Both the position numbers and the translations under genes were made by a program. A stretch of DNA of 11,070 nt, from the NCBI GenBank assembly GCA_018920255.1, contig JAHLMR010000014.1, positions 1 to 11,070 on the forward strand, written 5' to 3'. Positions 10,260-11,070 of this stretch are shown here, piece by piece. The stretch comes from Candidatus Aenigmatarchaeota archaeon (GTDB lineage Archaea > Aenigmatarchaeota > Aenigmatarchaeia > Aenigmatarchaeales > JAHLMR01). Under the pieces are notes generated by a model that saw only the letters and a list, made by a program, of their open reading frames with translations, did not search any database and was not told the DNA's origin. How positions within the stretch are numbered: the stretch's first letter is position 1; every line of letters starts with the position of its first letter.

Positions 10260-10267
10260 TTTATAAA
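10260..10267 (+). promoter_or_regulatory. TATA box of the repeat-protein gene
   Basis: The sequence tttataaa with a purine-rich gaaaga just upstream (BRE-like) is centred about 27 nt before ATG 10291, predicting a leaderless transcript. Confidence 0.55.
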
Positions 10268-10290: not shown

Positions 10291-11070
10291 ATGAAATCAT
10301 ATAACTATGACGTTGATAAAAAGATAGCCCAAGCACTGGAAGAATGTGGATTAACAGAAGAACAAATTCAGCAGGTTTCAAAGGAAATTAAAACAAATGT
10401 ATCATTTCTATCTGGAATTAAAGAGGATTCTTCTTTTTGGAATTTTAAGGAAAAAATAGAGGAGGTAGTTAAAAAATTCGAAAATGAAGGTCTTACAGTT
10501 GAAAAATATCTTAAAGTTGCATACAAACAACCACAACTATTCTATCAATCCCCAGATACAATAGAATCTAATATTAGAAATTTAGTTAAAAAATTCGAAA
10601 AAGAAGGCCTTACAGTTGAAAAATATCTTAAAGCCGCATGTGGTCAACCATCACTATTCTATAGATCCCCAGATACAATAGAATCTAATATTAGAAATTT
10701 AGTTAAAAAATTCGAAAAAGAAGGCCTTACAGTTGAAAAATATCTTAAAGCTGCATACAAACGACCACAACTATTCTATCAATCCCCAGATACAATAGAA
10801 TCTAATATTAGAAATTTAGTTAAAAAATTCGAAAATGAAGGCCTTACAGTTGAAAAATATCTTAAAGCTGCATGTGATCAACCATCACTATTTTGTCAAT
10901 CCCCAGATACAATAGAATCTAATATTAGAAATTTAGTTAAAAAATTCGAAAAAGAAGGTCTTACAGTTGAAAAATATCTTAAAGCCGCATGTGGTCAACC
11001 ATCACTATTCTATAGATCCCCAGATACAATAGAATCTAATATTAGAAATTTAGTTAAAAAATTCGAAAAA
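10291..11070 (+). CDS. Tandem 39-residue helical-repeat protein (partial, 3' end off window)
   Basis: The frame is open from ATG 10291 to the window edge (260 codons). Residues 1-59 are a charged helical N-terminus that includes GLTEEQIQQVSKEI, which looks like a degenerate zeroth repeat. Five complete 39-residue repeats follow (60-98, 99-137, 138-176, 177-215, 216-254), with a sixth cut off at 255. The consensus reads VKKFEKEGLTVEKYLKAA, then a short variable patch, then P.LF..SPDTIESNIRNL. The helix-GLT-helix-P.LF-SP..I layout resembles mTERF-type alpha-solenoids, which bind nucleic acid in eukaryotic organelles. TALE-like repeats are a weaker comparison. No signal peptide or membrane segment is seen, so it should act inside the cell unless exported otherwise. 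Codon use (gcc, ggc, tcc) is less AT-biased than in its neighbours, suggesting recent acquisition or expansion. Function unknown. Confidence 0.85.
   Translation, partial: MKSYNYDVDKKIAQALEECGLTEEQIQQVSKEIKTNVSFLSGIKEDSSFWNFKEKIEEVVKKFENEGLTVEKYLKVAYKQPQLFYQSPDTIESNIRNLVKKFEKEGLTVEKYLKAACGQPSLFYRSPDTIESNIRNLVKKFEKEGLTVEKYLKAAYKRPQLFYQSPDTIESNIRNLVKKFENEGLTVEKYLKAACDQPSLFCQSPDTIESNIRNLVKKFEKEGLTVEKYLKAACGQPSLFYRSPDTIESNIRNLVKKFEK
10468..11070 (+). repeat. 117-bp tandem repeat, five full copies plus a partial
   Basis: Copies begin at 10468, 10585, 10702, 10819, 10936 and 11053 (truncated at the edge), with an exact period of 117 bp, or 39 codons. Most of each unit is identical at the nucleotide level. 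Differences cluster in a segment of about 30 bp encoding repeat residues 17-27. From the end of its first third to its end, copy 5 is identical to copy 2, which suggests a three-unit higher-order period produced by unequal exchange. The array continues beyond the window. Confidence 0.97.

Follow-up and report, generated by a model that had tools for sequence, protein, structure and literature searches.

The window, one entire contig of 11,070 bases, ends inside a gene that probably encodes a sequence-specific, DNA-occupying archaeal solenoid of the mTERF type and of bacterial origin (Table 1). From sequence comparisons and a structural model, we infer that the protein binds DNA and reads its bases, that it has a regulatory role, and that the gene moved from bacteria to the archaeon. 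The host genome (552 kb in 25 contigs) has an assembly completeness of 94.6% and an estimated contamination of 0.01, which makes the original prediction of a reduced archaeon a fair one, and the label of a DPANN-type genome fits the host. Neighbors of the gene on the contig are archaeal and include RNase Z; because the contig also carries TYW1, an archaeal CCA-adding enzyme, aIF5A, and a histone, we take the host to be archaeal. The reading frame starts with the ATG at 10291 and stays open through 11070, the final base of the contig. When the repeat DNA was searched against the host's own assembly for the missing 3' end, no other contig yielded it. The C-terminal part of a bacterial relative was not found in the host genome, a result that covers that particular C-terminus only. 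Searches of phage, plasmid, and viral contigs did not recover the repeat, and a search of NCBIfam gave no usable name for the gene product.

Table 1. Features of the repeat gene and its upstream region in the window
Feature	Position	Strand	Details
TATA-box-like promoter element (TTTATAAA)	10260..10267	+	Hexamers at -31 to -29 from ATG, leaderless-type spacing
Tandem-repeat mTERF-like protein gene	10291..11070	+	260 codons present, 3' end missing at contig edge
N-terminal cap: helices and degenerate leading repeat (apparent), residues 1-59, without sigma region	10291..10467	+	AlphaFold2 helices 6-18, 23-36, 38-42, 47-50; comparison with bacterial relatives
Repeat unit 1 (VKKFENEGLTVEKYLKVAYKQPQLFYQSPDTIESNIRNL)	10468..10584	+	39 residues (117 bp)
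Repeat unit 2	10585..10701	+	
Repeat unit 3	10702..10818	+	
Repeat unit 4	10819..10935	+	
Repeat unit 5	10936..11052	+	
Repeat unit 6, beginning only, cut by contig end	11053..11070	+	

Five perfect-period repeats of 117 bp running off the edge had been noticed previously, and our analysis confirmed them: units of 39 residues begin in perfect register at protein residues 60, 99, 138, 177, and 216, and the contig edge interrupts a sixth. Tandem Repeats Finder reported 5.2 copies with a period of 117 and zero indels. Self-identity at a lag of 117 was 76%, compared to at most 39% in 200 codon shuffles (best of any lag from 60 to 200). DNA identity between units ranges from 88.9 to 99.1%, and the single base that separates units 2 and 5 is synonymous. 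The units follow the pattern VKKFE[NK]EGLTVEKYLK[AV]A[YC][KGD][QR]P[QS]LF[YC][QR]SPDTIESNIRNL. Ahead of them, residues 1 to 59 form cap helices in the model and, judged from the sequence, seem to include a degenerate leading repeat.

To characterize the fold, we predicted the structure of the window protein with AlphaFold2 from 16 overlapping repeat segments, its own and 15 of bacterial relatives. The model is a solenoid (pLDDT = 90.7, pTM = 0.83) with three helices per unit, stacked as in human MTERF1, MTERF3, and MTERF4. In a Foldseek search of the PDB, complexes of MTERF1 with DNA ranked at the top (E = 2.4e-6, probability = 1.0, TM = 0.66), followed by MTERF4, mitoribosome chains, and MTERF3. 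The top 19 matches were all MTERF1, MTERF3, or MTERF4 structures or mitoribosome chains, and the TALE dHax3 appeared at E = 0.09. The original prediction had proposed comparing mTERF and TALE structures; mTERF came out ahead with VIA-align Z scores of 13 to 14 (MTERF3, 13.9; MTERF1, 13.6; range of 12.7 to 13.9 for MTERF1 and MTERF3) and TALEs stood well behind at 6.7 or less, and a Z of about 13 is not far beyond the range reachable by unrelated helical repeats. The Pfam mTERF family (PF02536) matched the whole protein at 37.4 bits, in a single stretch (51 to 221) across four units, and at 34.1 bits in a genome scan; both exceed the cut-off of 23.1, but repetition inflates Pfam scores, and unrelated families pass their own cut-offs on the same protein. 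Matches to DUF4817, Vps23_core, RuvA_C, HTH_36, and other Pfam families were disregarded, being short matches that the repetition multiplies. Since repetition lifts these families over their cut-offs as well, we relied on the fold together with the mTERF motif, which consists of a proline at position 8 and hydrophobic residues at 11, 18, and 25 (PMC11417379). The motif (P8/L11/L18/L25) is present as P22/F25/I32/L39 in all five units. By sequence, phmmer gave only a weak match to MTERF1 (E = 8e-4), and a profile of the repeat family recovered no mTERF chain from PDB sequences, returning chance matches only, which is why we turned to fold comparison and why the case for homology is founded mainly on fold and motif. 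With mTERF structures leading the fold search and Pfam mTERF above its cut-off, the predicted mTERF-like appearance is supported.

The protein can be set against three known systems. Like the mTERF family (PF02536; MTERF1 to MTERF4 and plant mTERFs), whose MTERF1 on DNA was the best Foldseek match, it has three-helix units, a proline/hydrophobic motif, and a solenoid fold. Proteins of that family are known mainly as organelle factors. Their units are degenerate, whereas ours are archaeal, near-identical tandem units of 39 residues, and about 18% of residues are identical when the structure is aligned with MTERF1. TALE and TALE-like proteins (AvrBs3, dHax3, STAR), the second-best fold match, also consist of near-identical tandem helical modules with few variable loop positions, but their units have 34 residues and two helices rather than 39 and three. 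A prokaryotic precedent is pTERF, the tandem mTERF-like repeat proteins that Hu et al. reported in 2024 from bacterial gut MAGs (PMC11417379). Sequence-specific DNA binding in vitro was shown for two pTERF proteins, with a Kd of 1.87 nM for one of them; the source genomes were all placed in Bacteria, and the main text contains neither "archaea" nor "sigma" (PMC11417379). Because these bacterial DNA binders have been described, the archaeal protein is a variant of an already known prokaryotic mTERF-like kind, with which it shares tandem repeats in a prokaryote and a gut-MAG source. On the published descriptions, pTERF differs in being bacterial only, in a naming scheme that spans periods of 15 to 35, and in pTERF1, which is stated to be without the mTERF motif residues (PMC11417379), while the archaeal units have a period of 39 and carry the motif throughout. 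No paper linking mTERF with Nanoarchaeota turned up in a literature search, and ours is apparently the first mTERF-like tandem-repeat protein of the pTERF kind in Archaea.

Variation among the units is concentrated where an mTERF protein would meet DNA. Ten of the 39 unit codons vary, two of them silently (8 and 25) and eight with a change of residue. Residue variation is confined to position 6 and positions 17 to 27, so that seven of the eight variable columns fall inside 11 of 39 positions; the nominal hypergeometric P value of 1.5e-4 is only indicative, because the units share ancestry, and the range was picked after viewing the data. MTERF1 has its motif prolines along the major groove and uses R162, R202, R251, R350, and R387 for base reading (PMC4705650). 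Counting on the printed structural alignment, with numbering anchored on the known mutant residues of 3mvb, we mapped R162 to P-2 (unit position 20), R202 and R350 to P+1 (position 23), and R251 to P+9 (position 31). Positions 20 and 23 differ among the archaeal units, while position 31, the third class of MTERF1 contact, is Thr in every unit, a point against the base-reading model. Comparisons between units of the same protein in seven bacterial relatives showed differences in 45% of cases at positions 20, 21, 23, 26, and 27 versus 22% elsewhere; position 26 is the most variable (69%), and positions 34 and 16 vary as well. We read this pattern as what modular base reading would leave behind, not as proof of it.

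Similar repeats had been suspected in host-associated bacteria, and such repeats were indeed present there. A contig scan with short exact peptide patterns retrieved six loci: four from Gastranaerophilales, one from a goat-duodenum bacterium, and one from an uncultured bacterium. The close relatives in gut Gastranaerophilales MAGs have the same units of 39 to 40 residues at 59 to 74% identity. A wider search near one bacterial locus matched 11 of 145 genomes, in part at 30 to 45% identity, and the bacterial family is therefore diverse. An N-terminal match to sigma-70 region 4 is common to four of the Gastranaerophilales proteins (L007, L008, L009, and L012). The N-terminal part of L009 alone matched this region in Pfam at E = 1.1e-7, and the profile of all four matched SigA, in the stretch ending in region 4, at a best E of 4e-7. 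By eye only, a sigma region 2 is suggested. In the L009 model, sigma-like helices follow a disordered N-terminus and precede a solenoid of 10 or more units and a C-terminal alpha/beta domain; the model superimposed on a sigma region 4 structure at 1.8 Å over 57 columns, with a poor E-value. Two relatives (L010 and L059) have no sigma part, so the fusion is common but not universal. Where complete, the fusions carry the alpha/beta domain behind units like the archaeal ones, whereas no sigma region is present in the archaeal protein, whose gene is cut at the 3' end. Two of the sigma-solenoid genes have divergently oriented neighbors (L009:1598-5173 and L012:2627-5152, both on the minus strand) that encode large, mutually related proteins, the former with tandem repeats of its own. 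A short F-x-G-like motif, maybe a sorting signal, recurs after the variable N-terminus in L007, L008, L009, L012, and L010 (INFCGKE, ISFCGNE, INFKGKE, ISFGAKQ, and ISFGNN).

The archaeal consensus unit is 74 to 82% identical to seven bacterial consensus units, about as close as these are to each other; the relationship is judged by identities, since 39-residue units are too short for firm tree placement. We compared codon usage and promoters with 135 ORFs sampled from the host, including 12 further contig stretches. The codon preference of the repeat gene lies near the bacterial loci, with only one of the 135 ORFs more donor-like, and its nonrepeat part shows this foreign codon usage too. TATA-like hexamers in the 135 ORFs peak at -30/-29 before the ATG, which implies mostly leaderless mRNAs; in the repeat gene they stand at -31, -30, and -29, a host-typical position that fits archaeal expression. 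Foreign codon usage combined with an archaeal-type TATA position can be read as transfer from bacteria followed by residence in the archaeon. Both the codon usage and the placement of the archaeal units within bacterial diversity support horizontal transfer, as originally proposed. A Gastranaerophilales-like gut bacterium is the probable source of the gene, the direction resting on these comparisons, and a third donor is possible.

We propose that the mTERF-type alpha-solenoid winds around DNA along its major groove, reading the sequence module by module, with conserved helices forming the coil and variable residues around the S-loop proline (20, 21, 23, 26, and 27) contacting bases. In the putative donor lineage, where such solenoids frequently have a sigma-factor region attached, the fusions could direct RNA polymerase to selected sites. 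Archaea have no sigma factors. The archaeal copy, without a sigma region and behind a TATA box, would act by occupancy as a repressor, roadblock, or terminator at sites of its own. Several mTERF proteins (MTERF4 and many plant members) work on RNA or ribosomes, and the structural matches include MTERF4-NSUN4 and mitoribosome chains, as expected if the solenoid bound rRNA, tRNA, or mRNA for ribosome assembly or RNA processing. We consider such a role unlikely: Foldseek favors MTERF1-DNA complexes, the bacterial relatives carry a sigma region, whose target is promoter DNA, and nearly uniform units that differ in their loop residues are well suited to reading bases repeatedly along a duplex. It is more doubtful still that the protein serves as an effector or protein-binding repeat in interaction with another cell rather than in regulation of its own genes. 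The archaeal protein begins directly at the cap helices with no evident export signal, and no secretion genes were recognized within the contig, even if the host genome is reduced, the bacterial relatives combine a variable N-terminus with the F-x-G-like motif, and TALEs, whose solenoid is comparable, are effectors delivered by injection.

The location of the gene at a contig edge, codon usage that differs from the rest of the contig, and close relatives that are bacterial could also reflect an assembly or binning artifact in which a bacterial repeat gene was fused to the end of an archaeal contig. This is very improbable, the least favored of the explanations considered, given that the TATA box stands at the genome's modal distance from the start codon, that the unusual codon usage extends to the N-terminal cap, which the bacterial relatives do not share, and that estimated contamination is low. 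We therefore retain the DNA-occupying solenoid of bacterial origin as the preferred reading. A broader proposal is more tentative: the 39-residue mTERF-type units may form a modular DNA-reading repeat that can be re-coded and that differs from TALEs, with a code at S-loop positions 20/21/23/26/27, used by gut bacteria in solenoid-aimed sigma factors and moved into an archaeon with the sigma part dropped. The near-identical archaeal units would offer a clean test for a readable module-by-module mTERF code, as in TALEs, and the bacterial fusions suggest a natural route for aiming RNA polymerase by a repeat solenoid. The original prediction was right about the repeat, the fold, and the likely transfer, but it missed the bacterial sigma fusions, the pTERF literature, and a second mTERF protein in the host.

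The distribution among archaea suggests that the gene passed between a reduced archaeon and bacteria of the gut. A search of 94 other related archaeal genomes did not find the 39-residue repeat in any of them; one encodes an mTERF protein (32% identical). Any mTERF match occurred in 3 of the 156 genomes surveyed from the host's phylum (phylum and class searches returned the same set). The expectation that such a solenoid would be unusual in a reduced archaeon was borne out. The second mTERF protein of the host (L014:5734-6702, minus strand, contig C4) is degenerate, with 322 aa and 107 bits to PF02536; it matches human MTERF1, MTERF3, and MTERF4 by sequence and aligns with the window repeat family in hhalign at E = 9e-6. 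In a third genome of the class (G087), an mTERF protein (L006:1291-2037, plus strand; 55 bits) is cut by a contig end. Another archaeon of the host's class (G138) encodes a 408-aa protein (L016:1162-2388, plus strand) with near-uniform mTERF-like repeats of 31 residues (93 bp), a period unlike that in the window.
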